Below are positions 36,846 through 56,198 of a DNA stretch of 64,000 nucleotides, piece by piece. This DNA is from Thauera sp. (GTDB lineage Bacteria; Pseudomonadota; Gammaproteobacteria; Burkholderiales; Rhodocyclaceae), in the NCBI GenBank assembly GCA_017302295.1, contig JAFLDS010000002.1, forward strand, positions 62,001 to 126,000, in the 5' to 3' direction. The notes under the pieces are model-generated. The model was given only the letters and a program-made list of their open reading frames with translations, was not told where the DNA came from and did no database searches. Both the position numbers and the translations under genes were made by a program. The stretch's first letter is position 1; each line of letters opens with the position of its first letter.

Positions 36846-36922
<77 letters not shown>

Positions 36923-36991: not shown

Positions 36992-37492
36992 TCAGTCAGC
37001 CCGGTGCTCGACTGCGACGGTTCCGGAACGTTGAACCGGGCGAAAAACCCATTCAGCGTGACTCGCGGCGCGCTCGGCGCCGCTTCCGAGCTCGGGCGGC
37101 AGGTCGTGGATGCGTATCGGGCGGGCGGACGACCGGCTGTGAAGGCCGACGATTCCACCGTTTGCCCAGAGTAGAACCCAGTCCGGCTCGCCGGTGAATG
37201 GGTCGTGCCAGACCCGGCGCAGATGACGAACCGGCATCGGAAAACGCCTGTCCTCGAGCAGATCGTCCAGGCTTTGAGGCCAGGCCGGGCTGCCGGCCGG
37301 CGATTTCACATGGTAGCTGCCGATCGCGCGCGCGATGTCGCTACCTCGCCGGAGGAGCTCAATCTCGCGCTCGCGCTGCGCCGCCTGCTGCCACACCACG
37401 CCCGTCTGCGCCGCACCGAGGCCCAGCGCAGCGATCGCGAAGAGAACCACCAGGTAGGTGTAGCCTCCCTGCTTCGCCCTACCACTGCGCAT
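36992..37492 (-). CDS. Minor pseudopilin-like protein (last gene of the secretion operon)
   Basis: The product is 166 aa. The N-terminus has a short basic leader ending in G10 (RAKQGG), followed by YTYLVVLFAIAALGL, a type IV pilin-like cleavage site and helix. Position +5 is Val, not the usual Glu, a trait of tip-type minor pseudopilins such as GspK. A coiled region with QREREIELLRRG follows, then a small globular domain with RRVWHDPFTGEPDWVLL. It overlaps the preceding pseudopilin gene by 14 bases. The family beyond pilin-like is not recognised. Confidence 0.75.
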   Translation of the reverse strand: MRSGRAKQGGYTYLVVLFAIAALGLGAAQTGVVWQQAAQREREIELLRRGSDIARAIGSYHVKSPAGSPAWPQSLDDLLEDRRFPMPVRHLRRVWHDPFTGEPDWVLLWANGGIVGLHSRSSARPIRIHDLPPELGSGAERAASHAEWVFRPVQRSGTVAVEHRAD

Positions 37493-37916
37493 ACGGAGAA
37501 CCGTCCCGTCCAGCGCCTTCCGCCCCGCTCCGCACGTCACGAATGCCGCCACCTTCGGCCGCGCTCGCTTCCATCTGCTCTGAAACGACGCCCCACGTGT
37601 CGACGCGATCGGTGATCGGATCCATCGGGATGCTGCGCAGGTAACGGCGGGCCACGAGTTCGTCCAGCTCGCGCGGGAACTGCCCGGTGTCGGCCTTGAA
37701 CTTGTCCAGCGCATCGCGCATCACCGCAAGCGACTGTCGCAGCGCCGTCTCACGGCTGCGGTCGAGATGATCGAAATAGCGCGGGGCAGCGATCGACAAC
37801 AGCGTCGCAACGATGGCCATCACCACCAGCAGCTCGATCAGCGTGAAGCCAGCGGGTCGAGCGACGCCGCCTGTACGCTGCCTCCGGCTCGGCGCCGCCT
37901 TCTTTTCCTCCGTCAT
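37479..37916 (-). CDS. Type II secretion pseudopilin (GspG/GspH-like)
   Basis: The product is 145 aa. A 23-residue leader ends in PAG, then FTLIELLVVMAIVATLLSIA with Glu at +5 (E28), the classic prepilin-peptidase signature. The C-terminal half reads ELVARRYLRSIPMDPITDRVDTW, like GspG-type major pseudopilins, but lacks the full calcium loop. Its ATG shares one base with the upstream stop (TGATG), so translation is coupled to the neighbouring pseudopilin. Confidence 0.85.
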   Translation of the reverse strand: MTEEKKAAPSRRQRTGGVARPAGFTLIELLVVMAIVATLLSIAAPRYFDHLDRSRETALRQSLAVMRDALDKFKADTGQFPRELDELVARRYLRSIPMDPITDRVDTWGVVSEQMEASAAEGGGIRDVRSGAEGAGRDGSPYAQW

Positions 37917-38413
37917 CACCACTCCCGATAGGGCACGCCGTCCAGCCCGGCGCCCGGGGCCAGCGAATGGACGTCGAACACGTCGGCTCCCGCCGCGGGC
38001 GCATCGGGCGGACTCGCGTAACTGCGCTTGCCCCAGCCTGCCGACGCCGGCAGTTCGGCGGGCTGGGCAAAGGGATCGCGCGGCACCCGGCGCAGGAAGT
38101 AGATGCGTGCGCCCTCCGGCGAGCGAAGGTCGCGCGCGCCCTCCACCAGCGCATCAAGGCTGGGTGGATAGCCGCTGCTCCCCTCAGGCCGCGCGATCTG
38201 CCCAGTGTCGGCGGCCGCCTTGTAGGCGTCGATCGCACCGCGAATCTGCCGCAATGCGATACGCAATTCGGCCTCCTTGGCACGCCGGGCACCCAGTTCC
38301 AGCAAGGGCACGGCCCCGGCCGCCAGCACGCCGACAATCGCCACCGTGACGACCAGTTCGATCAGCGTGAAGCCACCGCTGACGCGAGGCCGAAAAGCGC
38401 CCCTCCTGGACAT
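37916..38413 (-). CDS. Type II secretion pseudopilin
   Basis: The product is 165 aa. The leader ends in G14 (RVSGG), then FTLIELVVTVAIVGVLAAGA with Glu at +5 (E19). The later segment IYFLRRVPRDPFAQPAELP resembles the RRxPxDPF loop shared with its neighbours, so the three downstream pilin genes look like diverged duplicates. It starts seven bases after the secretin stop. Confidence 0.85.
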   Translation of the reverse strand: MSRRGAFRPRVSGGFTLIELVVTVAIVGVLAAGAVPLLELGARRAKEAELRIALRQIRGAIDAYKAAADTGQIARPEGSSGYPPSLDALVEGARDLRSPEGARIYFLRRVPRDPFAQPAELPASAGWGKRSYASPPDAPAAGADVFDVHSLAPGAGLDGVPYREW

Positions 38414-38420
38414 CGCCGTC

Positions 38421-40490
38421 TCAGCGATCAGGCGGCGCCGGCGCATCGCCTGCGGCTTCCTGTTGCGCTTCCGCGGCTGCATCATCCCCACCCGGACGGA
38501 CGGCCGCTGCCTGTCCTGCCGGCAGCGCCGACCTTGCGGGCGATGCCGCAGCATCGCCTCCTGCCAACTGCTCGGCAGGCACGGGCGCGGTGCGTGCAAG
38601 CGCCCCACCCGCCGCCGGCCGGCCGCCCCCGCCCTGCAAACCCAGGCTCCCGGGTGCGGTGGGCTGCAGGCGCAGCTGGCGCGCCCCGATCGAGCCTTCC
38701 GTGCCGGCAGGTTGGTCGGCGCGGGCAAGCGCCGGTGCGACGACGTTCCGTACGATGCGCGGCGTGATCAGCAGCACCACCTCGGTCTTCACCCGGCTGT
38801 CGCGCTCGGCCGAGAACAGCCGGCCCAGCGTCGGAATATCGCCCAGTCCGGGCAAGCGGCGCGCGCTCGAGCGCTCCTCGTCGTTGATGAGGCCGGCGAG
38901 CACCTGGGTCTCGCTGTTGGCCAGGCGCAAGGTGGTGGCCGCGCTGCGGGTGCCGACCTGATAGGCGAGCGAACTCGACGGGCCCGGCACCTCCTTGACG
39001 ATGCTGCTGACCTCCAGCGCGACCCTGATCACCACTTCGTCCTCGAGGGTGACGCTCGGCTCGACGTCGAGCTTGAGACCGACATCGAGGTAGTTCACCG
39101 AGGCCGACACGCCGACGTTCGCTGTCGACGTGGTGGTGAATACCGGCAGCTTCTCGCCGATGTGGATGCGCGCCTTCTCGCGGTTCTTCACCCGGATGCG
39201 CGGATTGGCGAGCAGGCTGGTGTCGCCGTCCTCGTTGCGCAGGTTCAGGATGGCGGCGGGGTTGGACACATACGGCACCATCGCGCCGGTATTGCGCAGG
39301 TTCACCAACCCGGCTGCCAGCGCGCCGCCGGGCGAAGTCGTGGTCTGGGTGACGCCGTTGACGATGGTGGTGGTGCTGAGGCCCGGCTGGATCAGGCCGT
39401 AGCCAATCTCGGTCGGAAACTCGACGCCGAGGTCGGTGAGCTTGTTGCGGCTGATCTCCAGCACCTCGACCTCGAGCATCACCTCCGGCTCGGCGATGTC
39501 GAGCGAGGCCAGCACACGCTCGGCCAGGCGCACCGCCTCGGGGGTGTCCTTGATCGCCAGCATGTTCAGCTTCTCGTCGATGAAGACGTCCTTGCTCTTC
39601 ACCAGCTGGCGCACCATCGCCATCGCCTGCTTGGCGTCGGCGTTGGCGAGGTAGAAGCTGCGCGTGACGAGTTCGACGTATTCCTTCTGCTTCGCCGCGG
39701 TCGCGGGATAGATCAGCACCGAGTTCGCGTTGAGCATCTTGCGCTCGAGCTGCTGGGTGGCGGTGATGAGCTTGATCACCTCGTCCACCGAGCTGTTGCG
39801 CACGAACAGGGTCACCTTGGAGTCGGCGCGCACGTCGCGGTCGAACACGAAGTTGAGCCCGCTGGCGCGCGACAGTGCCTCGAACACGATGCGCAGCGGC
39901 GCTTCGCGGAACTCCAGCGTCACCGGGCGCGCCATGCCCGCACTCAGCGCCTCGGCCACCGGCGCGGCCTTCGCCTCGGCGCGCTCGTCCAGCATGCGCA
40001 ACAGCTGCCGTGCGCGGGCGTTGCCCGGCTGCTCGGCGAGCACCGCCCGCACCGCGCGTTCGGCGGCGGCATCATCCTTGCCGAGCGCGGCCTGGGCTTC
40101 GTCGAGGCGTGCGCTACGACGCCGGTCGGCGGCCAGCTCGTCGGCACCGATGCGGGCACGCGGATGGTCAGGGTCGATCTGCAGGGTCTCCGCGTACAGC
40201 CGCCCGGCCTCGTCCGTGCGGCCCGCTGCGCGCGCGCGATCGGCCGCCGACAGGCGCTCGGTGGTCAGCAACTCGCGCTGGCGCAGGTAGTAGGCGCGCA
40301 GCTCGTGGTTCCGCGGATCCTTCGCCACGTCCTCCTTCAGCGCCAGGAAAGCCGCCATGCGGTCGCCACTGGCGAAAGCCTCGCGGCTGCGCTCCAGCGC
40401 CGGATTGCTTGCGCACCCCGTCAGGGTGGCGAACAGGGCGGACAGCAGGAGCCGGCGAGAAAGCGGACGGAAGCGAGGATTCAGGGTCAT
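38421..40490 (-). CDS. Secretin (GspD/PilQ/MshL-like) with lipoprotein signal and TPR-like N-terminus
   Basis: The product is 689 aa and should form the outer-membrane ring of the machine. The signal peptide ends in the lipobox LTGC (C26). A helical, TPR-like region covers about 30-185. A short STN/N0-like segment (RPVTLEFREAPLRIVFEAL) and one N1-type ring domain follow. The secretin core (about 420-610) includes VLAGLINDEERSSARRLPGLGDIPTLG and VVLLITPRIVRN. The tail of about 90 residues is Ala/Gly/Pro-rich. Typical GspD has several N domains and no lipid anchor; this layout is nearer to MshL/PilQ-type secretins. Self-lipidation could replace a pilotin, which is not encoded nearby. Confidence 0.88.
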   Translation of the reverse strand: MTLNPRFRPLSRRLLLSALFATLTGCASNPALERSREAFASGDRMAAFLALKEDVAKDPRNHELRAYYLRQRELLTTERLSAADRARAAGRTDEAGRLYAETLQIDPDHPRARIGADELAADRRRSARLDEAQAALGKDDAAAERAVRAVLAEQPGNARARQLLRMLDERAEAKAAPVAEALSAGMARPVTLEFREAPLRIVFEALSRASGLNFVFDRDVRADSKVTLFVRNSSVDEVIKLITATQQLERKMLNANSVLIYPATAAKQKEYVELVTRSFYLANADAKQAMAMVRQLVKSKDVFIDEKLNMLAIKDTPEAVRLAERVLASLDIAEPEVMLEVEVLEISRNKLTDLGVEFPTEIGYGLIQPGLSTTTIVNGVTQTTTSPGGALAAGLVNLRNTGAMVPYVSNPAAILNLRNEDGDTSLLANPRIRVKNREKARIHIGEKLPVFTTTSTANVGVSASVNYLDVGLKLDVEPSVTLEDEVVIRVALEVSSIVKEVPGPSSSLAYQVGTRSAATTLRLANSETQVLAGLINDEERSSARRLPGLGDIPTLGRLFSAERDSRVKTEVVLLITPRIVRNVVAPALARADQPAGTEGSIGARQLRLQPTAPGSLGLQGGGGRPAAGGALARTAPVPAEQLAGGDAAASPARSALPAGQAAAVRPGGDDAAAEAQQEAAGDAPAPPDR

Positions 40491-41008
40491 GAACGGGACA
40501 AGGAGAGTGACTGTCGCTGCTGCAGCGGAAGGTAAAGAAAGTCGATGCCGGCCTCGCCGATGCGCTCGACGCGATAGCGGCCATCGATCTCATCGCCCCT
40601 GCCAAGGATATGAAGGTGTTCCCCCTGCATGATCAGCGCCCGGCGCTGCCCGGTCTCATCGATCGCGCCGACGTAGCGGAACGGCAGCGGCGGCGCCGTC
40701 GGCCGCGGCGAAGCGGAAGGCGGCGGGGGTGGCCGAAAGCTGAGTGGCGCAGCGAAGCCGGCGCCTTCGGCCGCCAGCGGCGCACGCCTTGCAGCCACGG
40801 GCAGTTCGGGCAAACGTTGCATCGCTGCGGCCGACCCGGTCTGGGCGGTCGCAGGCCGTGGGGGCGCAGCGGAGTTGGGGGTGGCACGGACGCGGGGCTC
40901 GGCAGCGGCTCGAGCGGGCGAGTCGTCGACGTCCTGCATCGCGGCCCACATGCTTGCGCCCAAGGTCAATGCAAGCGCGCCCGCGAGGCGCCACTGGCGG
41001 GGCTTCAT
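40487..41008 (-). CDS. PilP/GspC-like periplasmic linker protein
   Basis: The product is 173 aa. A single N-terminal membrane anchor (about 7-23) leads to a Pro/Ala-rich linker of about 85 residues and then a small beta domain (about 108-165), with FRYVGAIDETGQRRALIMQGEHLHIL. This is the layout of PilP or of the HR domain of GspC, which bridge the inner-membrane platform to the secretin. It overlaps the secretin start as ATGA. Assignment rests on layout and position, with weak motif support. Confidence 0.65.
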   Translation of the reverse strand: MKPRQWRLAGALALTLGASMWAAMQDVDDSPARAAAEPRVRATPNSAAPPRPATAQTGSAAAMQRLPELPVAARRAPLAAEGAGFAAPLSFRPPPPPSASPRPTAPPLPFRYVGAIDETGQRRALIMQGEHLHILGRGDEIDGRYRVERIGEAGIDFLYLPLQQRQSLSLSRS

Positions 41009-41571
41009 CGACCCTCCTCGACGAAGAGCACGAGGCGCAGCTCCGCCTCGATGCGGCGAGCTTCGCTGCCGGTGCGCTTGATCGACAGCCCCTCGAGGGC
41101 GAGCTCGGGCAGTGCGACCAGCACCTCACTCAGCCACGCATGGATGCGTAGAAACTCCCCCTGCACGGGTAGCGCCAACGCAACCCGCCGCAGCGGTGTT
41201 CCCGGCTCCGCCGCGATGCGGTAGTCCGCGCGCGTAAAGTCGAGGCCGTGCGCCTGTGCAGCGGCATACAGCCGTCCGAGGCGCGCGCCCAGTTCGGACG
41301 CTGCTGGAAAACGGCTCGCGTAGTAGCTGTCGACGCGGGAGCGGTCGCTCTCCGCCGGGGCGGTCGCCTCGACCCAACTTGCGCGCATCAGGCGCGCCCG
41401 TTCCTGGGCCAGTTCTCCGCGCACCGATTCGGCGTAGCGATCGCCCCATGTGCCACCCACAAGGGCCACCACGATCAAGACTGCGCCGAGCCCACCCGCC
41501 CAGCCGCATTGGCGCACCAGCGCGCGCAACGCGTTCGCACACCGCATTTGCATCGCCCCCGGGTTCGGCAT
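41005..41571 (-). CDS. PilO/GspM-like inner-membrane protein
   Basis: The product is 188 aa. One transmembrane helix (about 23-42) is followed by a helical region and a ferredoxin-like C-terminal domain, the usual PilO/GspM topology. The segment VALALPVQGEFLRIHAWLSE matches the PilO-type pattern for the small alpha/beta domain. It overlaps the PilN-like gene as TGATG and the next gene as ATGA. Confidence 0.7.
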   Translation of the reverse strand: MPNPGAMQMRCANALRALVRQCGWAGGLGAVLIVVALVGGTWGDRYAESVRGELAQERARLMRASWVEATAPAESDRSRVDSYYASRFPAASELGARLGRLYAAAQAHGLDFTRADYRIAAEPGTPLRRVALALPVQGEFLRIHAWLSEVLVALPELALEGLSIKRTGSEARRIEAELRLVLFVEEGR

Positions 41572-42146
41572 CAGTTTGCCCCCTGGTTACGTGTGGCGAC
41601 GACGAAACGCACGAAGGCAACCCCATTGCTCGTCGCTGCCTCATGGCTGACCAGTTCGATCCCCGACAAGGCAGGCTCGCGACGCATGCGGTCGATGACC
41701 TCGAGCACCGCGCCCAGCGTGCGCGCTTCACCAGCGAGGCGCAGACCACGCTGCGCATCGCGCGCTTCGGTCAGATCCACCTCCACCCACGCGAGGTCCG
41801 CCCCACGCACTCGCGACAGCGCCGCGAAAACCTCGCTCCAGTCGGTACCGAGGCGCGCCGACACCCGCTGCACGCCAGCCAGTTCCTGCGCGGTGAGCGG
41901 CATGGCCACCGGTGCGCGGGCCACCGCAGGGAGTTGGCGATCCTTCAGCGCCCCGACGATCGCGATCCGCTCGGCAAGATCCGCGCGCGCGTCGACAAGG
42001 CCCTGCACTTCGGCAAGGGCGCAGAGCGCCCCGACGGCAAGCAATGCCCAGCCGGGCCAGCCCGGCGCCCGTCGGATCGGCACGAAATCGAGCTCGACCG
42101 GGGCGGGCGGCTGCGAGTTGCGCCGCGCGAACTTGAGGGCGCTCAT
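41571..42146 (-). CDS. PilN/GspL-C-like inner-membrane protein
   Basis: The product is 191 aa. A short basic cytoplasmic N-terminus carries ELDFVPIRRAP, resembling the PilN peptide that docks on PilM. A transmembrane helix lies at about 30-48, then a coiled helix and a ferredoxin-like domain with WVEVDLTEARDAQRGLRLAGEA. The ATG at 42146 overlaps the PilM-like stop as ATGA. Confidence 0.7.
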   Translation of the reverse strand: MSALKFARRNSQPPAPVELDFVPIRRAPGWPGWALLAVGALCALAEVQGLVDARADLAERIAIVGALKDRQLPAVARAPVAMPLTAQELAGVQRVSARLGTDWSEVFAALSRVRGADLAWVEVDLTEARDAQRGLRLAGEARTLGAVLEVIDRMRREPALSGIELVSHEAATSNGVAFVRFVVATRNQGAN

Positions 42147-42916
42147 GCAATCTCTCCACACGCCTGTGCGCGCCAGCCCTCAGGGAGCGTGCCCATCAGC
42201 CGTTCCACATCGACGCCCTGCACGAGCACCTTCCCCGCGCCACCGGGCTGCCCGGGCTCGGCCGTGACCGCCGGCAGCCAGCCGGCGAGCGTGCGAACCA
42301 GCAGCGGCGCGGCATCACCGTCGGCCACTCGAAGGCTGCGTACCCGGCACCATTGCCCGCCGGCCCACATCCCCAGCGTCAGGCGTCCGTCGCGACACAG
42401 CCCGAAGGCGCCCAGGTCAGCGCACAGGTCGGCGTCCAGGACAACGTACGAGCCCGTGCGCAGGCGGTTGTAGCCCGCCACGAAACGGCCTTGCAGGGAA
42501 GTCAGGCGCATGCGCCGCTCACCGGCGAAGCGTGTCACCGCATCGATCAACGCGCGTGGCGCGGCGCTGGTGAGTGCCGCCGTGCCCTGCGCCGCACGAT
42601 CGACACCCAGCACCCACTCGGCCGCATCGACCCCATGCACCGCCCGGAAACGCTCGGACACCCAGGCCGCCCGCTCGGCGCCGCCCCTCAAACCAAGCGG
42701 CCACTCGATCACCAGATAGCGCAGCCAGGCATCTGCGATCTCCACCGCCAGCCGTCCCTTGCGCACCGGCGTCCGATCGCCCAACGTGGCCAATGCGTCC
42801 AGCGCGCCCGCCGGATCATCGCCGACCGGCACGACCACGCTCGCATCCGCGCCAGCCAGATGCCAGGCGTCCGGCGCCAGCGTCAGCCGCCAGGACTCAG
42901 CCGAGAAGCGTGACAC
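42143..42916 (-). CDS. PilM/GspL-N-like cytoplasmic platform protein
   Basis: The product is 257 aa with no transmembrane segment. The pattern of an Asp-rich actin-like fold is visible: GRLAVEIADAWLRYLVIEWP early, ALIDAVTRFAGERRMRLTSLQ in the middle and YVVLDADLCADLGAF later. This fits the cytoplasmic half of GspL or PilM, split from its membrane partner as in type IV pilus systems. It starts with GTG inside the end of gspE (20-base overlap). ATP-binding residues cannot be confirmed. Confidence 0.65.
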   Translation of the reverse strand: MSRFSAESWRLTLAPDAWHLAGADASVVVPVGDDPAGALDALATLGDRTPVRKGRLAVEIADAWLRYLVIEWPLGLRGGAERAAWVSERFRAVHGVDAAEWVLGVDRAAQGTAALTSAAPRALIDAVTRFAGERRMRLTSLQGRFVAGYNRLRTGSYVVLDADLCADLGAFGLCRDGRLTLGMWAGGQWCRVRSLRVADGDAAPLLVRTLAGWLPAVTAEPGQPGGAGKVLVQGVDVERLMGTLPEGWRAQACGEIA

Positions 42917-44585
42917 GATTCAGTTCCTGCAAGGTGGTGTCGCCCGCGGCCACGATGTCGGTGACCGCCTGGCGCAGGCTGCGGAAACCGCGCCGCCGCG
43001 CGGCCTCCTTCAGCGCACGGATCGGCGCGCGGGACAGGATCAATTCGCGGATTTCGTCGTCGAGCAGCAGCACCTCGGCCACCGCGCGCCGCCCCTTGTA
43101 GCCCGAGCCGCGACAGTGGCCACAGCCGTGCCCGGCGCGGAAGCGGAACGCGGACACGTCGCCGAGCGCCGATTCGGCGATCAGCGCGGCGTCGGGCGCG
43201 ATGTCGTCGCTGCAGTGCGGACAATTCACCCGCACCAGGCGCTGCGCCACCACGCCATTGAGCGCGGCGACGAGGTTGTACGGATCGATGCCCATGTGCA
43301 TGAAGCGGCCGATCACATCGAACACGTTGTTCGCGTGCACCGTGGTGAACACCAGGTGGCCGGTCAGCGCCGCCTGCACCGCGATCTCGGCGGTCTCTCC
43401 ATCGCGGATCTCGCCCACCATGATCTTGTCCGGGTCGTGGCGCAGGATGGAGCGCAGGCCGCGCGCGAAGCTCAGGCCCTTCTTTTCGTTAACCGGAATC
43501 TGCAGCACACCGGCCAATTGATACTCGACCGGGTCCTCGATGGTGACGATCTTGTCGAGGCCGTGGTTGGTCTCGCCCAGCGTCGCATACAACGTGGTGG
43601 TCTTGCCGCTGCCGGTGGGGCCGGTGACCAGCAGCATGCCGTAGGGCTCGCTCGCCAGGCGGCGCAGCACAGCCCGAGTGTCGGCGGCGAAGCCGAGCGA
43701 CTCCAGTGACAGACCGCTCATCTCGGCACTCAGATGCTCCTTGTCGAGCACGCGCAGCACCGCGTCCTCGCCGTGGATGCTGGGCATGATGGAGACGCGG
43801 AAGTCGATGTCGCGCCCGCCTGCCTGCGCCTTGAAACGGCCATCCTGCGGCACGCGGCGCTCGGCGATGTCGAGCTCGGCCATCACCTTCAGGCGCGAGA
43901 TCACCTGCTCGGCCAGTTCCGCCCCCGCCGCGCCGCCGACGCGCGACAGCACGCCATCGATGCGGTAACGGATCACCAGGCCGGCCGGCACCGTCTCGAG
44001 GTGGATGTCGCTCGCGCCTTGCTTCAGCGCGTCGTACAGCGTGGAATTGACCAGCTTTACCACCGGGCTGGCGTCGGCGCTGATGCGCTTGAGCGACAGC
44101 TCCTCGACCGCCTCGCCGCCCTGCTCGTCCTCGCGCGCCATGTGCAGGCCGGCCGCGCGCCGCACCTCGTCCTCGTGGCGAGCCAGGCAGGCGGCGATGT
44201 CGTCGCGGTCGCCGAGCGCGAGCGCAAAGGACTCCGTCAGACGCGCGCCAAGGCCGTCGAGCAGGTCGGAATCGAAGGGGTCGGCGAGCACCACCACCAA
44301 CGCGCCTCGCTCGTCGCGCAAGGCCACGCATTCGCCTCGCAGCGCGGACTCGAAGCCGATCGCGGCAAAGTCCGGCGCGAGCGTCATCAGCCGCGCATGG
44401 CCGATCGCGGGCAATGCGCAGGTTGCAGCCAGGCGGCCCAGACGCAGCTCGGCCTCCGGCTCGATGGCGGCAAGCCCGTCCGCCACACGCGGCGCCGCGG
44501 CGCGCGCCCTCGCGAGCTCGGCCGCGGTAAAGGGCGCTGCCTGCAGCGGGTCCAGTCTCAGCGCAAGCTCGTGCGGCGCGTTCAT
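42897..44585 (-). CDS. gspE: Type II secretion/pilus assembly ATPase GspE
   Basis: This cytoplasmic hexameric ATPase drives pseudopilus assembly. The product is 562 aa. An N-terminal MshEN/GspE-N-like domain covers about 1-150. Walker A GPTGSGKT is at 322-329. The Asp box ASDIHLE (191-197), the Walker B/His region IMVGEIRDGETAE (388-400) and a tetracysteine zinc site (C455, C458, C488, C491) are all present. The start at 44585 overlaps gspF as ATGA. It is complete and should be active. Motor type is assembly, not retraction, because the zinc motif is present. Confidence 0.93.
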   Translation of the reverse strand: MNAPHELALRLDPLQAAPFTAAELARARAAAPRVADGLAAIEPEAELRLGRLAATCALPAIGHARLMTLAPDFAAIGFESALRGECVALRDERGALVVVLADPFDSDLLDGLGARLTESFALALGDRDDIAACLARHEDEVRRAAGLHMAREDEQGGEAVEELSLKRISADASPVVKLVNSTLYDALKQGASDIHLETVPAGLVIRYRIDGVLSRVGGAAGAELAEQVISRLKVMAELDIAERRVPQDGRFKAQAGGRDIDFRVSIMPSIHGEDAVLRVLDKEHLSAEMSGLSLESLGFAADTRAVLRRLASEPYGMLLVTGPTGSGKTTTLYATLGETNHGLDKIVTIEDPVEYQLAGVLQIPVNEKKGLSFARGLRSILRHDPDKIMVGEIRDGETAEIAVQAALTGHLVFTTVHANNVFDVIGRFMHMGIDPYNLVAALNGVVAQRLVRVNCPHCSDDIAPDAALIAESALGDVSAFRFRAGHGCGHCRGSGYKGRRAVAEVLLLDDEIRELILSRAPIRALKEAARRRGFRSLRQAVTDIVAAGDTTLQELNRVTLLG

Positions 44586-45766
44586 CCGATGCTCTCCGCA
44601 AGCTGGAAGATGGGCAGGTACATCAGCACCACGATGAGTCCGATCGCCCCACCAATGAACAACATCAGCAGCGGCCCGAACAGCCGCGTCAGCCACTCGA
44701 CCTGACGGGCGGTGTCGTCCTCGTGGAATTCCGCGGCGCGCGTCAGCATCTCGCCCAGATTGCCGGCACGCTCGCCGACCTCGAGCATGCGCATCGCCAT
44801 CGGCGTGGTCAGCCCACTGCTGGACAGCGTGGCGGCAAAGCCCTGGCCTTCGCGGATGCGCGCGATCGCCGCATCCAGCCTGCCCCGCAGCGTGTGGGTG
44901 AGCAGGCCCGACACCATGCCGAGCGCGGCCACCACCGGAATGCCGCCCGAAAGCAGCATGCCGAGCGTGCGGTAGAAGCGCGCGAGCTGGAACACCCGGA
45001 GCCGTTCGCCGACCATAGGCATGCGCCACAGGCCGCGTCCGAGCGCAGCGCGGAAAGCGGGGTGGCGCGACAGCGCAACCAAACCACCGACGATCAGCGC
45101 CAGAGCCAGCGCGCCGCTCAAAGCGTTGGCCTCGATGAACTGCCCCCACTCCAGCAAGAGGCGCGACATCAGCGGCAACTCGCCGCCGACGTCCTCGTAG
45201 ATATGCGAAAAGCGCGGCACCACGTAGCCGAGGAGAAAGAGCACCACCAGACCGCCCACCCCAAGGAGCAGCACCGGATAGATCGCCGCACTGACGAGCT
45301 TGCCGCGCAGGCTGTCGAGCTGTTGCTGGTAGGCGATGAAGCGCTCGACCGCCTGGTCGAGGTCGCTGGTGCGCTCGGCGGCACGGATCATCGCCACATA
45401 AAGATCGGGAAAGACGCTGCCCCCGCCACTCGCGGCCTCGAGCGCGCTCGACAGCGTGCGCCCCTCGCGTAGCGCGTTCAGCATGCCCTGAAGCGTGGCG
45501 CGTACCGCTGGACGCCCCTCCTTCTCCGCCAGCGCCGCGATTGCCTCGGCGAGCGGGATGCCGGCGCGCAGCAGCGCGAGCAGCTCCTGATTGAACAGCA
45601 GCAACGGAAAACGCTGGGCACGGCCACGCGACGCCTGGCTGCTGAGCGTCAGCACCATCAACCCGCGCGCCGCGGCCACGCTGCGCAGCTCGGCCTCGGA
45701 GCCGGCCTCGATCTCGGTATCGACGACCGCCCGGCCGGGCCCGATCGCCCTTACCCGGTAGCGCAT
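44582..45766 (-). CDS. gspF: Type II secretion inner-membrane protein GspF
   Basis: GspF is the polytopic platform protein that couples the ATPase to pseudopilin insertion. The product is 394 aa, with two T2SSF repeats (about 60-185 and 260-385). Three hydrophobic helices lie near 160-183, 210-230 and 365-388. The N-terminus MRYRVRAIGPGR and ALNALREGRTLSSAL-type segments match GspF. It lies between gspG and gspE, spaced five bases from gspG. Confidence 0.92.
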   Translation of the reverse strand: MRYRVRAIGPGRAVVDTEIEAGSEAELRSVAAARGLMVLTLSSQASRGRAQRFPLLLFNQELLALLRAGIPLAEAIAALAEKEGRPAVRATLQGMLNALREGRTLSSALEAASGGGSVFPDLYVAMIRAAERTSDLDQAVERFIAYQQQLDSLRGKLVSAAIYPVLLLGVGGLVVLFLLGYVVPRFSHIYEDVGGELPLMSRLLLEWGQFIEANALSGALALALIVGGLVALSRHPAFRAALGRGLWRMPMVGERLRVFQLARFYRTLGMLLSGGIPVVAALGMVSGLLTHTLRGRLDAAIARIREGQGFAATLSSSGLTTPMAMRMLEVGERAGNLGEMLTRAAEFHEDDTARQVEWLTRLFGPLLMLFIGGAIGLIVVLMYLPIFQLAESIG

Positions 45767-45771
45767 GCCGA

Positions 45772-46230
45772 CTACCAGTTGGTCACGTCGGCCGCTTCGC
45801 CCTCGCCGCCGGGCTGGCCATCGGTGCCAAAGGAAAACAGGTCGATCTCGCCATGCTCGCCCGGGTGGCGGTACTGATAGGGCTTGCCCCAGGGATCGAG
45901 CGGCACCGCCTTCTTCAGGTAGGGCCCGCCCCAGCGCGCCACATCGGCCGGCGGCGCCACCAGCGCCTGCAGGCCCTGCTCGGTGGCCGGGTAACGACCG
46001 ACATCGAGCCGGTACTGGTCGAGCCCCTTCTCGAGCGCATCGATCTGCGCCCGCGCCGTCTTCACCTCGGACTTGCCGATCTGCGCGAAGAAGCGCGGAC
46101 CGACATAGCCCGCGAGCAGGCCGATGATGACCATCACGACGAGAAGCTCGAGCAGGGTGAATCCGGAAGTGCGTCTGACACTGAGGTAGGGCTTGGCTGC
46201 GATTGACTGCATGCGGATCGGGCGATTCAT
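45772..46230 (-). CDS. gspG: Type II secretion major pseudopilin GspG
   Basis: GspG polymerises into the periplasmic pseudopilus. The product is 152 aa from the ATG at 46230; an ATG six codons on (46212) is an alternative. The leader ends in G23 (RRTSG), then FTLLELLVVMVIIGLLAGYV with Glu at +5 (E28). PATEQGLQALV and the C-terminal calcium loop DLFSFGTDGQPGGEGEAADV are canonical. It is the first gene of the 11-gene secretion operon. A prepilin peptidase must be supplied from elsewhere. Confidence 0.93.
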   Translation of the reverse strand: MNRPIRMQSIAAKPYLSVRRTSGFTLLELLVVMVIIGLLAGYVGPRFFAQIGKSEVKTARAQIDALEKGLDQYRLDVGRYPATEQGLQALVAPPADVARWGGPYLKKAVPLDPWGKPYQYRHPGEHGEIDLFSFGTDGQPGGEGEAADVTNW

Positions 46231-46350: not shown

Positions 46351-47631
<1,281 letters not shown>

Positions 47632-47731
47632 GGCAAAATCCTTTGTATTGATCCTGAACGGTTTCGGAGATGAGCAGCAAGCGCAGGAAACGCTCGTCAT
47701 ACGCGTCCCACGCCCACGCTAAAGGCCGGCT

Positions 47732-47749
47732 GTTGCACCCAGGTGACAT
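47732..47749 (-). promoter_or_regulatory. Weak Pho-box-like site upstream of the GDPD gene
   Basis: On the minus strand ATGTCAC-CTGG-GTGCAAC matches 10 of 14 positions of the Pho-box repeat. It lies about 100 bases before the GTG start. Chance matches of this quality are common in a region of this size, so it is listed as a candidate. Confidence 0.2.
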
Positions 47750-47794
47750 CAGGATCGGTGCTTGCCGGCGAAACCCTGCGGCTGGAAACAGACG

Positions 47795-47829
47795 AAAAAA
47801 AGCCCACCGGCACCTCTGCACCGATGGGC
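47795..47829 (-). terminator. Intrinsic terminator after the first PhoX-family gene
   Basis: GCCCACCGG (47802-47810) pairs with CCGATGGGC (47821-47829), one mismatch, around a 10-base loop. On the minus strand TTTTTTT follows (47795-47801). It lies 47 bases beyond the PhoX stop. Confidence 0.88.
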
Positions 47830-47876
47830 AAGTCCTGCGAGGAGAGCAGGTTCTGGACGTCGTTTGGACTCAGCGA

Positions 47877-49223
47877 TCAGTCTTCACGCTTGTCCTTGCG
47901 CACCTTGGTAATCGCCATCGTCTTGTCGTTGCCGGTGCCCGAGTGCTGGATGTTCACGAACAGCGTGTGCGGATCCTTGCCGAAATAGATTCCGGTGCCT
48001 TCAGCCGGCTTGTCCTTGAGCGACGCGAACAGGGAGACGCCGTCCCGGTAGCCGTCGCCGTTGGCGTCCTTCGAGCGGGGGTCGTACACCCAGATGTCGC
48101 TCCAGTCGTTGTCCTCGACAATCCACAACTTGCCGTCCGGACCGCTGGCGAGATTGTCCGGACTCTTGAAGCCGGTAACGCCCGGCGTGGAGGCGGTCGG
48201 CTTGACCTCCTTCGGCACGTTCTTACCCGGTGCCACGACGTAGGTCACGACAGGCTTCTCCCCCAACTCGACGGCCATCACCGCGCCCGGACCACTGGTA
48301 TTGGCGGGATTGTCGACGTCTTCACAGGTCAGCGCGACGTACAGGGTGCTTGCCAGACGCTCGAGATCTTCCGGACGGCAGAAGCTGGTCGCACCCATCG
48401 CTTTCGCCGCCACGCGCGCGCTGATCTGCACCTGCTGCATGTCGAGGGCGACCCATTCGGCCGCACCGGTCTTAGCACCGCCGGCCACCTTCAGCGCGTA
48501 GAGTTGACCGCTCGACAGATCGCCATAATTTTGCGGCACGAACTTGTAGATGGCGCCGGTCCGCTCCTCGTCGATCACATAGACGTTGCCTTCGGCGTCG
48601 ACCTCGATGCCCTCGTGCGACAGCGCGCCCAGCAGCGGGCGCACGGTGACACTCTCGGCCTTAGTCGGGTCCTGCGGATCGAGCTTGAGTTCGTAGAGCA
48701 GGCCACTCTTTGCCTGCGGCGCATCCGGATCAGGACGGGCGCTATCGATCACCTCTTCCGCGAACAGGATGGTCTGCCACGGCGTCCAAAGAATGCCATC
48801 GAGTGCTTCCCAGTCAGTGCGCGCAACCACTTCCTTCGCTTCGCCCGTCTTCAAGTCGACGACCGACACCGAGCCGCCGCTACCACCATCGTTGCGTCGC
48901 GAGTTGCCGTCGTTGCCGATCACGCCGCCACGCACCTCGTGCGTGCGGTAGAGGTAACGGCCCGCGTGCTTACCGGTCTCGTTGACCGTGTTCATGTCGT
49001 TCCAGTCGGTGCCGACATAGATGTCCAGATTCTTCTCATCCGACACGATGGTCTGAACGAAGCCTTCGGGAATCAGATACGGCGCGGTGGCGATGTCGGC
49101 ATCGTTCTCCATGCCGTAGGCAGAGCCAACCAGCGGCTTGAACGCCATCGGACCATTCACGTCGGCGTGTACTTGAGTTGTGAATGCGGCAACCAGGGAA
49201 AGGGCCAGCAAGGACTTCTTCAT
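47877..49223 (-). CDS. PhoX-family (DUF839) exported phosphatase-like protein, Sec type
   Basis: The product is 448 aa with a Sec signal peptide (MKKSLLALSLVAAF, cleavage after QVHA, residue 21). The mature region reads as a beta-propeller of the PhoX/DUF839 type: HEVRGGVIGNDGNSRR, ALDGILWTPWQTILFAEE, LLGALSHEGIEVDAEGNVYVIDEE and GIYFGKDPHTLFVNIQHSG. PhoX enzymes are Ca/Fe-dependent phosphomonoesterases, usually Tat-exported; the Sec signal is unusual. A good AGGAGA precedes the ATG. It may hydrolyse phosphomonoesters outside the cytosol; the substrate is unverified. Confidence 0.85.
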   Translation of the reverse strand: MKKSLLALSLVAAFTTQVHADVNGPMAFKPLVGSAYGMENDADIATAPYLIPEGFVQTIVSDEKNLDIYVGTDWNDMNTVNETGKHAGRYLYRTHEVRGGVIGNDGNSRRNDGGSGGSVSVVDLKTGEAKEVVARTDWEALDGILWTPWQTILFAEEVIDSARPDPDAPQAKSGLLYELKLDPQDPTKAESVTVRPLLGALSHEGIEVDAEGNVYVIDEERTGAIYKFVPQNYGDLSSGQLYALKVAGGAKTGAAEWVALDMQQVQISARVAAKAMGATSFCRPEDLERLASTLYVALTCEDVDNPANTSGPGAVMAVELGEKPVVTYVVAPGKNVPKEVKPTASTPGVTGFKSPDNLASGPDGKLWIVEDNDWSDIWVYDPRSKDANGDGYRDGVSLFASLKDKPAEGTGIYFGKDPHTLFVNIQHSGTGNDKTMAITKVRKDKRED

Positions 49224-49479
49224 CAAGACTTCTCCTGAACTTTAGTTTTGGTGCGTCCGGACGAGACACGCGATGTCCGCCCGCGTCGCATTGTTGGAAG
49301 CCCACGTTGCCGCAGCATTACGCTTTTCTTATAAATGACCTGTAGAAATCCGTGCTTGCGCAGTAGATCCGCCGCCGAGAACGCAGTCCGCAACAGGCCT
49401 GTCACTCAGACAGCCTAAAATCCCGCCTCCGTACATCGAGCCGCGGCGAACGCGTCACTCAACCCACAGAAGGTTTCGC

Positions 49480-50097
49480 ATGCGCCTGTTGGTCTTGCCG
49501 CTGGCAGTCCTGATCACTCCGCTGCCAAGCGCCGCAAACAGCCTGTTCGGCTTCATCGATGAAACGGGTGTCGCGCATTTCAGCGACTTCGCCGCTGATC
49601 GCCGTTACAAGCGGCTGTCAGGCCCCGCGCCCGCAGCCAAGCCGCTCGACCGCCAAGCGCGCAAGAAGGATGCCGGTTCGCCGATCACCGACGGCTTGCG
49701 CGCTCAGGTCGCGCGCATTGCCGACGAGCATGGGCTCGACCCCGCGCTCGCACTTGCCGTTGTCCACATCGAAAGCGCCGGGCGCAGCGACGCGCGCTCA
49801 CCCAAGGGTGCCCTCGGGCTGATGCAGTTGATGCCCGCAACGGCGCAGCGTTACGGCGTGGCCGACGCGTTCGACGCCGACGCCAATCTGCGCGGAGGCA
49901 TCCGCTACCTTCGCGATCTGGTGCAGCAGTTCGGAAGCGTCGAGTTGGCGCTTGCAGCGTACAACGCCGGCGAAGGAGCAGTCCTGCGGCATGGACGACG
50001 CATTCCACCGTATGCAGAGACCCAGGCCTATGTGCCCAAGGTACTCGCGCGCTATGCAGCACTGCAGCGTGAAAACATGCCACGACGGCTCGACTGA
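49480..50097 (+). CDS. Soluble lytic transglycosylase (DUF4124 plus SLT domain)
   Basis: The product is 205 aa. A signal peptide of about 19 residues ends in PSAA. A short DUF4124-like segment (FGFIDETGVAHFSDFAADRRY) follows. The Slt-type catalytic domain (about 74-195) has E98 in VVHIESAGRSDARSPKGALGLMQLMP and ALAAYNAGEGAV. Such small enzymes often open the peptidoglycan for secretion or pilus machines. Its place next to the secretion operon and its hydrolases suggests, but does not prove, that job. AGAAGG lies upstream of the ATG. Confidence 0.9.
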   Translation: MRLLVLPLAVLITPLPSAANSLFGFIDETGVAHFSDFAADRRYKRLSGPAPAAKPLDRQARKKDAGSPITDGLRAQVARIADEHGLDPALALAVVHIESAGRSDARSPKGALGLMQLMPATAQRYGVADAFDADANLRGGIRYLRDLVQQFGSVELALAAYNAGEGAVLRHGRRIPPYAETQAYVPKVLARYAALQRENMPRRLD

Positions 50098-50175
50098 GCG
50101 GCGATGTTCAGAACCGTTATGACCCGCCACCGGACCGATAAAGGTTTTGCAACATTGGGCTTCTAGATTGGGGGG

Positions 50176-50216
50176 CTTCCGCGAAAGCACCGGCCTCGCC
50201 TCGCCGGACGCGGAAG
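50176..50216 (+). other. Long stem-loop in the leader of the second PhoX-family gene
   Basis: CTTCCGCG (50176-50183) pairs with CGCGGAAG (50209-50216); inside, CCGGC pairs with GCCGG. The structure sits 45 bases before the ATG and could affect translation or mRNA stability. No T-run follows, so it is not a simple terminator. The rest of 50098-50260 shows no convincing promoter or Pho box. Confidence 0.45.
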
Positions 50217-50260
50217 TCGCTGCGCCGCAGCCGTTTTCCCCACTTCAGAGGAAGCACCCC

Positions 50261-51775
50261 ATGACCGATCCCCGTTTCCACGCATCCCGCCGCAACATGC
50301 TGAAAGGTACCGCCTCGCTGGCTGCGGCGCCTTTCGTCACAACCTTCGGCCTGATGGCGCGCAATGCCGAGGCTGCGACCTGTGAGCGCTTCACCGAGAT
50401 GACCGTCAGCCCCTTCGGTCCGCTGGCGCCGATGAAGGACGAGACGACCGGTCTCGAACTGCTGCAGCTGCCGGAAGGCTTCTCGTATCGCACTATCGGC
50501 TGGCAGGACGACATCATGAGCGACGGCATCACCTGTCCGGCCCGCTTCGACGGCATGGCGGTGGTGTCGCAGCGCCGTGAGGGCCGCAGCACCGAGCTGA
50601 TACTGGTCCGCAACCACGAAGTCGGCAACTTCCCGCGCACGACCGGCGTGGCGCCCACTTACGACAGCGCGGCCAACTCTTCCGGCAACTACGCCGGCGG
50701 CGGCACCACCACCATCGTGTTGCGCGACGGCGTCGTCGTCGATGTACGCGCCAGCCTCGCCGGCACCATGACCAACTGCGCCGGCGGCCCCACGCCCTGG
50801 GGCACTTGGCTGAGCTGCGAGGAAAACACCGACGACCGCAGCGCCTTTGGCGGCAAGAAGCACGGCTACGTCTTCGAAGTCGATCCGGACCCCGCCCAGA
50901 CCACCGCCGAACCGCTGGTCGCCATGGGGCGCTTCCGTCACGAAGCCGTCGCCATCGATCCCACCAACAACTTCTGCTACCAGACCGAGGACCAGAGCCC
51001 CGTTTCGGCCCTGTACCGGTTCGAGCCCAACAACGCGGGCGGCTACACCGGCGCCTATGCCGACGGCGGCCGCCTGACTGCGGCGCGCATCCAGCGCATC
51101 GAGCGTGCGGGCACGACTTCGCTGGCCGATGCCAATGCCCTCGCCTTCGCTTCACCCTGCCTGGGTGACGAATACCTGCTCGAATGGGTCGAGCTCGACA
51201 ATCCGGACGCGGCACCCACAACCCGTAACGTCAACGGCACCAACCGCAGCGTATCGGGCACCTTCGCCCAGGCCTGGGACGCCGGATGCGCGCGCATGGC
51301 GCGCGGCGAGGGTATCTGGCAGCACGGCGGCCGCATCTACATCGTCGACACCGCCGCGGGCGGCGAAGGCTGCCTGTGGGAACTCAACCCCGCTTCGGGC
51401 CGGATCAAGTGCATCTACGTCAGCAGCAATCAGCTCGCCGGCAACAACCTCGACAACATCACGATCAGCCCGCGCGGCGGAATCGTCTGCTGTGAGGACG
51501 GCGGCACCAGCACCGACGAGTTCGGTCGCGGGAGCCGGCTGTTCGGCATCAACAATCAGGGCCAGCCCTTCATGCTGGCGAAGAACAACCTGAACTTCAG
51601 CGCCGAGCAATACGCAGCGGTCGGCAAGAACCTGACTGCGGGTCTGGGCGATCAGCGCGGTTCGGAGTTCTGCGGTGCCTGCTTCGACCCGCTGGGCCGC
51701 ACGCTCTTCGTCAACATCCAGACGCCGGGCATCACTTTCGCCATCACTGGCCCGTGGGCAAAGGGCAACCTGTAA
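50261..51775 (+). CDS. PhoX-family phosphatase (DUF839), Tat type
   Basis: The product is 504 aa. The N-terminus carries a twin-arginine signal, SRRNMLK at residues 9-15, cleaved near NAEAA. The PhoX core shows LILVRNHEVGNF, GGPTPWGTWLSCEENTDD, GYVFEVDPD and GRFRHEAVAIDP. ISPRGGIVCCEDGG and RTLFVNIQTPG lie near the C-terminus. The Glu-rich CEEN motif is part of the Fe/Ca site in characterised PhoX. Likely a secreted or periplasmic phosphomonoesterase. AGAGGAAG precedes the ATG. It converges on the 5'-nucleotidase gene. Confidence 0.9.
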   Translation: MTDPRFHASRRNMLKGTASLAAAPFVTTFGLMARNAEAATCERFTEMTVSPFGPLAPMKDETTGLELLQLPEGFSYRTIGWQDDIMSDGITCPARFDGMAVVSQRREGRSTELILVRNHEVGNFPRTTGVAPTYDSAANSSGNYAGGGTTTIVLRDGVVVDVRASLAGTMTNCAGGPTPWGTWLSCEENTDDRSAFGGKKHGYVFEVDPDPAQTTAEPLVAMGRFRHEAVAIDPTNNFCYQTEDQSPVSALYRFEPNNAGGYTGAYADGGRLTAARIQRIERAGTTSLADANALAFASPCLGDEYLLEWVELDNPDAAPTTRNVNGTNRSVSGTFAQAWDAGCARMARGEGIWQHGGRIYIVDTAAGGEGCLWELNPASGRIKCIYVSSNQLAGNNLDNITISPRGGIVCCEDGGTSTDEFGRGSRLFGINNQGQPFMLAKNNLNFSAEQYAAVGKNLTAGLGDQRGSEFCGACFDPLGRTLFVNIQTPGITFAITGPWAKGNL

Positions 51776-51798
51776 TCCAGCCCTCTCGGCTTCGGCCC

Positions 51799-51823
51799 GC
51801 GGCCCGCTGCGGCGGCGGGCCGC
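51799..51823. terminator. Hairpin between convergent PhoX and 5'-nucleotidase genes
   Basis: GCGGCCCGC (51799-51807) pairs perfectly with GCGGGCCGC (51815-51823). It lies midway in the 56-base gap between two converging stops, so it may serve both directions. There is no T-run on either strand. Confidence 0.5.
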
Positions 51824-51831
51824 GCTCCACG

Positions 51832-53895: not shown

Positions 53896-54133
53896 CCTCA
53901 CCTCGTCGCTCACGCCCGTCCGGCGAACGGTTGCTCGTGTCGTTCGCGACGATGATCGACAGCGAAGATGTCAATCGTTCGGCGCTCCATCAGCCGACGA
54001 CGCGCGCTGGCACCCCATGTCCGCAGCCACATTCAATGTACGAGCCAAAACATCGCTGTCATTCTGCGCCTTTAGCCTCTCGGCTCCGCGCTTGGCCACA
54101 ACGTCCGGCGCCTTCGAGCATGAGGAACGGCAG

Positions 54134-56080: not shown

Positions 56081-56085
56081 TTGCA

Positions 56086-56113
56086 GGCGCTGACGTAGAG
56101 GCGCCGACGTAAA
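56086..56113 (+). repeat. Tandem 14-base direct repeat upstream of phoX
   Basis: GGCGCTGACGTAGA (56086-56099) is followed at once by GGCGCCGACGTAAA (56100-56113), 12 of 14 bases identical. It lies between the nuclease stop and the terminator before phoX. It could be a regulator site for phoX; the 14-base period does not fit the 11-base Pho box. Confidence 0.45.
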
Positions 56114-56153
56114 CAAAACCGCAAACTTCTCCCGGTAGAACGTCTGTTCACGC

Positions 56154-56180
56154 GCAGCGGCTGCAGCCGCTGCTTTTTTT
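56154..56180 (+). terminator. Intrinsic terminator just before phoX
   Basis: GCAGCGG (56154-56160) pairs with CCGCTGC (56167-56173), and the palindromic CTGCAG loop extends the stem to a full 20-base palindrome. TTTTTTT follows (56174-56180). The phoX ribosome-binding site begins about nine bases later, so no promoter fits between them. It either ends the nuclease transcript with phoX read-through, or acts as an attenuator for phoX. Confidence 0.85.
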
Positions 56181-56198
56181 CGTTCCCCAGGAGAAAGC

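Follow-up and report, generated by a model that had tools for sequence, protein, structure and literature searches.

Relatives of the type II secretion system (T2SS) with an unusual gene content have been mentioned under several names. In Ralstonia solanacearum, an "unorthodox T2SS" is described with seven core genes in about 9-10 kb and four hypothetical genes between gspE and gspD, the relevant passages being ambiguous as to whether this holds for one strain or for all (PMC5080846, PMC6428702); one such cluster adjoins rhsB (PMC6428702). An operon of Paraburkholderia nodosa named "secretion system X" is said, in the passage that mentions it, to resemble that of Ralstonia (PMC5095457), and "secretons of unknown function" appear, without a function, in a listing for Dechloromonas (RCB). 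As for the canonical machines, sections of PMC6668835 make GspC mandatory in the final T2SS model, and mshA, E, G, L and M mandatory in the MSHA model. Here we describe an eleven-gene operon at positions 36992-46230 (- strand) of a 64,000-nucleotide stretch of Thauera sp. DNA (GenBank assembly GCA_017302295.1, contig JAFLDS010000002.1; hereafter the window), together with the family it represents, family X. Loci and genomes are given L- and G-numbers, the window's genome being G000. Family X forms a lineage of its own beside the Gsp, MSHA and type IVa pilus (T4aP) machines, and its eleven genes probably encode a type II-like protein exporter.

The window's operon has four genes between E and D, the layout that those passages give for one or all of the Ralstonia strains, and at some loci family X has RHS neighbours, as one Ralstonia cluster does (RHS genes are recurrent at the plasmid loci of family X). 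Such likeness is one of description, as are those to the P. nodosa operon and to the Dechloromonas secretons; in Dechloromonas hortensis (L092) a lytic transglycosylase gene lies inside the gene block, as in the Dechloromonas listing. The three named systems seem to be of the same kind as family X. No Ralstonia record occurred among the plasmid matches for D or E. Family X is thus not unreported: scattered annotation exists, and within the open-access literature searched (subscription papers lay outside the search) it is uncharacterised, with no function or experiment. Annotation treats its genes piecemeal, with labels such as GspE/PulE, cohesin-domain protein or hypothetical protein. The original prediction, made from the sequence alone, had pointed to a provisional "secretion system X" label in some database entries for betaproteobacterial relatives, and the label does exist in print (PMC5095457).

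An intact and conserved operon

All eleven reading frames are intact and stand in the order G-F-E-M-N-O-P-D-p1-p2-p3 (Table 1). Eight of the ten gene junctions overlap, by 1-20 bases, and gaps are found at G/F (5 bases) and D/p1 (7 bases), which bears out the largely overlapping operon of the original prediction. About 70 bases beyond the downstream end of the operon, and in the same orientation, lies a tRNA-Met gene that might serve as an insertion site.

In the profile search proposed as a check on the prediction, GspG alone was passed among the NCBIfam models for named machine parts (G against the equivalog TIGR01710, 179 bits, cut-off 89). E, F and D stayed under the cut-offs for GspE, PilB, GspF, GspD, PilQ and MshL: F reached 273 bits against TIGR02120 GspF (cut-off 424), E 496 against GspE (630) and 463 against PilB (676), and D 114 against MshL (250). 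The minor pseudopilin models H, I, J and K were all unpassed, and p1, p2 and p3 stand in their place; p1 (E 3.7e-10; 51-72% identity in 17 of 17 relatives) and p2 (E 6.7e-14) match TIGR01710 below its cut-off. Pfam domains passed were T2SSE, MshEN, Secretin, Secretin_N, STN, N_methyl and T2SSG (F was left out of the Pfam search). M, P and p3 had no Pfam family, and N and O gave sub-threshold matches only, to PilN and GspM (O against the XpsM-type GspM model, E 2.3e-5). E carries the Walker A motif GPTGSGKT and two CxxC pairs and is the operon's sole AAA-type gene; NCBIfam and Pfam models detected no PilT-type ATPase among the eleven genes, in agreement with the predicted lack of a retraction ATPase.

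Conservation was assessed over 98 loci, namely the window, 17 loci from related genomes, 3 plasmid loci and 77 from named genomes (80 less the duplicates L070, L072 and L076). The named loci are the best 80 of 594 stretches, 45-78% identical; that scan returned at least 594 stretches, 571 of the 594 encoding some secretin relative (E 1e-3), not necessarily all of family X. All eleven genes lie on one strand in 56 of the 98 loci, 53 of them in the window's order and mostly from Betaproteobacteria by database label; the other three begin with D-p1-p2-p3. This answers the call of the original prediction for a survey of operon conservation. Of the other 42 loci, 20 are near contig ends by a rough rule; among the genuine departures, no G was detected in L061-L064, p1-p3 are absent from the operon strand in L088, L089, L094, L095 and L104, and D-p1-p2-p3 occur alone in L091, L096, L099, L100 and L103.

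Searched with the secretin, 29 of 41 related genomes had a match at E 1e-20; of these, 18 score at least 228 bits and the remainder at most 95. In up to 15 kb around 17 of these matches the gene order is kept; two loci end at contig ends, and p3 was not detected in one (L050). Of 369 genomes sampled evenly across the class, 11 gave a p1 match, and 8 of those 11 fall outside the order. Large plasmids and chromids carry the system too (25 records for D and 25 for E), alphaproteobacterial ones included. Two metagenome-assembled genomes labelled Bordetella parapertussis (L105, L114) carry the operon and look like misnamed metagenome bins. The motifs of E, the GspG model passed and the order kept across loci show that the eleven-gene set is real and not a chance assembly. 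"Hybrid", the term of the original prediction, is misleading for what is a coherent conserved family and not a local mixture.

Phylogenetic placement

A combined tree of E and F was built from 51 rows and 851 columns and is unrooted. Row L003, the window's own E, was dropped, L002, L004, L005, L234 and L178 were left out as long branches, and L170, L177, L179, L181 and L183 as GspE rows without F; the remaining 70 rows were thinned to 51. Family X, MshE and PilB each form one clade at 100/100, and GspE one at 92/76. MshE and PilB group together at 97/90, which in this unrooted tree leaves family X with GspE/F. In a quick tree of E alone, family X adjoins MshE with a Shimodaira-Hasegawa-like approximate likelihood ratio (SH-aLRT) support of 86, and approximately unbiased (AU) tests rejected neither family X with MshE (p 0.08) nor family X with PilB (p 0.16).

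The secretin tree (58 rows, 246 columns, 22 of 100 family X rows used) likewise resolves family X, GspD, MshL and PilQ as one clade each at 99/98 or better, family X at 100/100. The order among the four is supported at 58/15 only, and the program warned that the long branches of X and PilQ meet. No family X row fell inside the GspE or GspD groups in the E, E+F and secretin trees. Family X is thus a fourth lineage beside Gsp, MSHA and T4aP. It is perhaps sister to the T2SS and likely of T2SS type, given the side it takes in the E+F tree, but the AU tests reject neither alternative. A placement of E and the secretin inside canonical Gsp or MSHA clades, with the missing parts elsewhere in the genome, was looked for and not found. 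Of the "distinct T2SS lineage" proposed originally, the distinctness holds, and the T2SS affiliation is likely, not proven. The original prediction is confirmed as an observation and partly supported in its interpretation.

Components and the rest of the genome

The scaffold proteins were compared by hhalign, with profiles of 82-92 relatives each set against scaffold profiles from type IV pili, MSHA and T2SS. N resembles PilN (89.8%) and the PilN-like C-terminal part of MshI (92.1%), and O resembles PilO (89.0%) and MshJ (73.8%). P matches PilP at 57.7%, and PilP sequences also lead its matches in the PDB (E 0.15); among 55 relatives 3 weakly match Pfam T2SSC and 1 matches PilP. The highest score of N, O or P to any other partner was 12.8%. 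M reached at best 0.3% against any scaffold profile. In Pfam its family (71 members) touched ten families, one member each, at E 0.009 or worse, and PDB sequences gave no meaningful match. M as a recognisable PilM or GspL is thus unsupported by the profiles of PilM (11 members), MshI (7) and GspL; negatives against GspL, GspM and GspC are weak because each reference is a single E. coli sequence. The predicted PilM/N/O/P-like layout therefore holds for N, O and P by profile and for M by position only.

Near its N-terminus N has an LDF motif that precedes a presumed membrane helix and is conserved at 73, 81 and 86% by residue (86 rows). In five PilN rows compared, this position is taken by INLLP. 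The INLLP motif of PilN is the docking site for PilM, and on this background M may dock on LDF.

In the secretin D, Cys26 of the lipobox is invariant in the 13 of 13 rows aligned. This alignment is better evidence than the strict lipobox pattern, which matched 66 of 101 secretins; several of the 35 misses carry an LxGC-type motif and escaped the pattern since reading frames had been taken from one stop codon to the next. The lipobox cysteine, together with TPR-like repeats in the N-terminal region, suggests that D could be self-piloting; HxcQ is a parallel for such a secretin. A C-terminal extension of at least 150 residues follows the secretin domain in 65 of 96 relatives (110 residues in the window's D) and is annotated as a cohesin domain in Janthinobacterium and Eleftheria.

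Among the pseudopilins, Glu5 is kept in G (71/74), p1 (91/93) and p2 (93/93). It is missing from p3 in 70 of the 70 sequences with a called site, as in E. coli GspK; a rough pattern served to set the mature start of p3 and gave no site in 14 of the 84 sequences, which include duplicates.

Elsewhere in G000 a single A24 prepilin peptidase was found; its gene is on contig C19, at a distance of 1.7 kb from that of a PilB-type ATPase, which makes it most likely that PilD serves the family X machine too. The GspC model (Pfam T2SSC) was silent across G000. The original statement that GspC is absent thus holds for the model, and the PilP-like P appears to fill its place, so that what differs may be the sequence and not the presence of the part. 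Among 29 genomes of the genus, family X occurs in 14, GspC in 9 and both in 1 (G288; two-sided Fisher p 0.014). In the 21 good assemblies, 1 has both, 8 family X only, 8 GspC only and 4 neither (p 0.024); G015 was counted as a carrier of family X from a fragment at a contig end. At the level of the order, G028 and G038 carry both. Near-exclusivity of this kind suggests that either system can do the job.

G000 also has T4aP genes, with pilM on contig C10 besides the ATPase and peptidase on C19, and one MshL-model match. On contig C2 (L246) there is a second non-canonical type IV filament cluster, with a secretin, an ATPase, a platform protein, several pilin-like genes and a 482-residue protein in the PilM/MshI place; on contig C51 (L248), genes resembling a Tad pilus cluster stand beside a putative RHS-like protein of 1627 residues.

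Compared with the canonical T2SS of E. coli K-12, family X is alike in GspG, ATPase, platform, secretin and one pseudopilin without Glu5. It differs in having separate M and N genes instead of a fused GspL, the PilP-like P in the place of GspC, four pseudopilins (G, p1, p2, p3, without H-I-J-K) instead of the five G-K, and a lipoprotein secretin with a TPR-like N-terminus; its ATPase and secretin form separate clades. With MSHA and T4aP it shares the split PilN/PilO/PilP-type scaffold (MshI/MshJ in MSHA) and the E-alone tree nearest MshE, but its major subunit is GspG-type and its clades are separate. Against what MSHA requires, the MshL model was missed, the operon has no second AAA-type gene and E lies outside the MshE group. 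As for T4aP, the ATPase and secretin fall outside the PilB and PilQ groups, M is not PilM by profile and the operon has no PilT-type gene.

Table 1. Genes of the operon and selected neighbours, with window positions and the evidence for each assignment.
Feature	Position	Strand	Evidence
G: major pseudopilin GspG, prepilin motif GFTLLE	45772..46230 (start 46230 or 46212)	-	TIGR01710, Pfam T2SSG
F: inner-membrane platform protein	44582..45766	-	TIGR02120 GspF, below cut-off
E: assembly ATPase, MshEN domain, Walker A, two CxxC pairs	42897..44585	-	Pfam T2SSE and MshEN
M: protein in the PilM / cytoplasmic-GspL position	42143..42916	-	Position; no NCBIfam/Pfam family, no meaningful profile match
N: PilN-like, LDF motif near N-terminus	41571..42146	-	hhalign, motif
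O: PilO/GspM-like	41005..41571	-	hhalign; XpsM-type GspM model below cut-off
P: PilP/GspC-like, HR-type C-terminal part	40487..41008	-	hhalign; PDB sequences
D: secretin, predicted lipoprotein (LTGC), TPR-like N-terminus	38421..40490	-	Pfam Secretin, Secretin_N, STN
p1: GspG-like minor pseudopilin, Glu5 present	37916..38413	-	TIGR01710, below cut-off
p2: GspG-like minor pseudopilin, Glu5 present	37479..37916	-	TIGR01710, below cut-off
p3: minor pseudopilin without Glu5, possible GspK-like tip role	36992..37492	-	No Pfam/NCBIfam family
tRNA-Met, directly downstream of operon	36846..36922	-	
Candidate cargo: glycerophosphodiester phosphodiesterase (GDPD), just upstream of G	46351..47700	-	Pfam GDPD
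Candidate cargo: PhoX-like phosphatase, signal-peptide-like N-terminus	47877..49223	-	Pfam PhoX
Candidate partner: SLT lytic transglycosylase	49480..50097	+	Pfam SLT

Neighbouring genes and likely function

Upstream of the operon the window holds a dense phosphate-scavenging cluster (46351-58241) with a GDPD gene, three PhoX-type phosphatases, a 5'-nucleotidase and an endonuclease/phosphatase; apart from the GDPD and PhoX-like genes of Table 1, these lie within about 12 kb of the operon. The window's PhoX-like gene was found in one of 29 genus genomes at E 1e-40 and in none of the 28 others. Copies 78% identical to it stand at the operon's other end, 139 bases off in L137 and 203 in L136, which makes this gene the most telling example among the neighbours. 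At other loci, too, the operon has exoenzyme genes next to it: in L065 and L066 an ExeM/NucH-type nuclease gene lies some 200 bases away from gspG, in J. lividum gspF is immediately preceded by a gene for an M4 metallopeptidase, and in Aquabacterium olei gspG has a GDPD gene as its neighbour, 28% identical to that of the window.

Flanking gene clusters were counted over 101 loci, window and duplicates included: EpsA regulator 30 loci, PEP-CTERM 24, PstS-like 21, TpsB 21, SLT 20, TpsA 17, ankyrin 13, ExeM/NucH nuclease 10, 5'-nucleotidase 8 and PhoB 8. SLT genes lie within 1.5 kb upstream of the operon in 14 cases (12 on the opposite strand) and inside it in 4. A cassette of five flanking genes (EpsA regulator, PEP-CTERM protein, PstS-like protein, TpsB, TpsA) is seen in 15 loci (L068, L074, L075, L078, L080, L081, L082, L085, L086, L100, L116, L121, L125, L128 and L134), so that a two-partner secretion pair, TpsB/TpsA, travels with the machine there.

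As a control, 103 loci averaging 17.7 kb, operon included (L070, L072 and L076 removed as duplicates), were compared with 40 stretches of 20 kb from five genomes other than those of the named loci, a match being at least 100 bits. SLT was matched at 21 loci and in one control stretch (p 0.008), TpsB at 22 against none (p 0.0005), EpsA at 21 against none and the window's 5'-nucleotidase at 4 against none.

Taken together, these data point to a type II-like protein exporter of separate lineage, a reading we consider probable. G passes the GspG model; Glu5 is present in G, p1 and p2 but missing from p3, as from E. coli GspK; there is no PilT-type ATPase among the eleven genes; family X and GspC are nearly exclusive in the genus; exoenzyme genes (M4 metallopeptidase, GDPD, ExeM/NucH nuclease, PhoX-like) adjoin the operon; SLT genes are commoner than in the control stretches; and in the alphaproteobacterial version the gene just ahead of gspF encodes an A24 peptidase. 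In this organism the phosphatases, phosphodiesterase and nuclease near the operon are the most likely, putative, cargo.

Several observations weigh against this reading. No cargo gene is common to most loci, cargo genes varying by locus, and many loci adjoin surface-protein genes instead (EpsA regulator, PEP-CTERM, TpsB/TpsA). The DNA of L136 and L137 is 93% identical and represents one lineage, so that the PhoX-like link amounts to two cases in total. The excess of ExeM nuclease (9/103 against 0/40, p 0.06) and of PhoB (7/103 against 1/40, p 0.44) is not significant, and the PhoX class is unenriched (PhoXb 1/103 against 1/40; PhoXc 0/103 against 1/40). The control stretches come from five genomes and not from those of the named loci, and the Fisher tests on GspC and on neighbours ignore relatedness. 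A terminator-like site lies between the PhoX-like and GDPD genes, although such sites are as frequent as in shuffled sequence (6 against 5.9), and between the GDPD gene and gspG there is a hairpin lacking a T run; PhoX-like gene, GDPD gene and operon may therefore be separate transcripts. The operon has no Pho box by the E. coli consensus. M, lastly, has no detectable kin in the profile, Pfam and PDB comparisons. Pho regulation of the operon was ruled against by the chance level of the scan (2 sites in the whole window with at least 11 of 14 letters, 2.3 expected), and a Herbaspirillum phosphate response (PMC8222739) was set aside as support, since the sole match was in the reference list.

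An MSHA-like or other surface pilus, whose filament would extend outside the cell for adhesion or biofilm formation, is an unlikely alternative. In its favour, the scaffold has the divided form known from pili, family X stands next to MshE in the quick tree of E, the AU test leaves that grouping unrejected, and EpsA, PEP-CTERM and TpsA genes are frequent neighbours; yet the major subunit is GspG-type, the MshL model was missed, the operon lacks a PilT-type gene, p3 resembles GspK in lacking Glu5, and E+F side with GspE/F. The same tree position and the GspG equivalog match would suit an ordinary T2SS whose fast-evolving parts have drifted past recognition. We regard this as improbable, since the GspE and GspD groups contain no row of family X, the GspC model finds no match in G000, and GspL is one protein in E. 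coli against the two genes M and N, with five pseudopilins against four.

The surface-protein neighbours also raise the idea of an outer-membrane route for PEP-CTERM (exosortase-sorted) proteins, as reported for MYXO-CTERM proteins of myxobacteria, which according to the passage in PMC11980579 reach the surface by the T2SS. Counting duplicates, 31 of 101 loci have flanking genes whose products carry PEP-CTERM-like C-termini, and an EpsA-type regulator flanks 30. Exosortase is no commoner with family X than without it within the genus (9 of 14 genomes against 13 of 15), so that a link between the two is not supported there, and ten scanned neighbours of the window's operon gave no PEP-CTERM match; this route seems quite unlikely. 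In a paper on PEP-CTERM proteins and flocs, the passage concerned refers to a type II system only in connection with transport to the periplasm (PMC9850573). Competence systems too build short filaments through a secretin, but a DNA-uptake machine is highly improbable here: the genome has T4aP genes besides, and no competence gene was among the flank representatives scanned.

If the operon encodes an exporter, we infer that it might work as follows. Cargo enzymes would enter the periplasm by Sec or Tat, and PilD, borrowed from the type IV pilus, would trim G, p1, p2 and p3. The ATPase E, acting via F, could stack copies of G to build a short filament in the periplasm, tipped by p1, p2 and p3. 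The scaffold between the inner membrane and the secretin would consist of N, O and P, with cytoplasmic M docking on the LDF motif of N. P might deliver cargo to the lipidated secretin D, the growing filament would expel it, and the lytic transglycosylase may open the wall.

A wider reading, which we hold only tentatively and rate as doubtful, would make family X a separate origin of secretion within the type IV filament superfamily, from neither the canonical T2SS nor MSHA. M would then be non-homologous to PilM/GspL and dock on a new motif, the LDF of N; the secretin would self-pilot by its lipid anchor; cargo would be locus-specific (phosphoesterases, nucleases, proteases, RHS giants); and the system would replace the T2SS in some betaproteobacteria, for example in part of the genus.

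Betaproteobacteria from soil, sludge and water repeatedly carry a complete machine with a phylogenetic identity of its own. Export of phosphatases and nucleases, if this is what the machine does, would explain how species without a detected GspC, such as this one, feed on organic phosphate. The frequency with which secretion has evolved from pili, an issue brought up in PMC6668835, could also be tested on family X.

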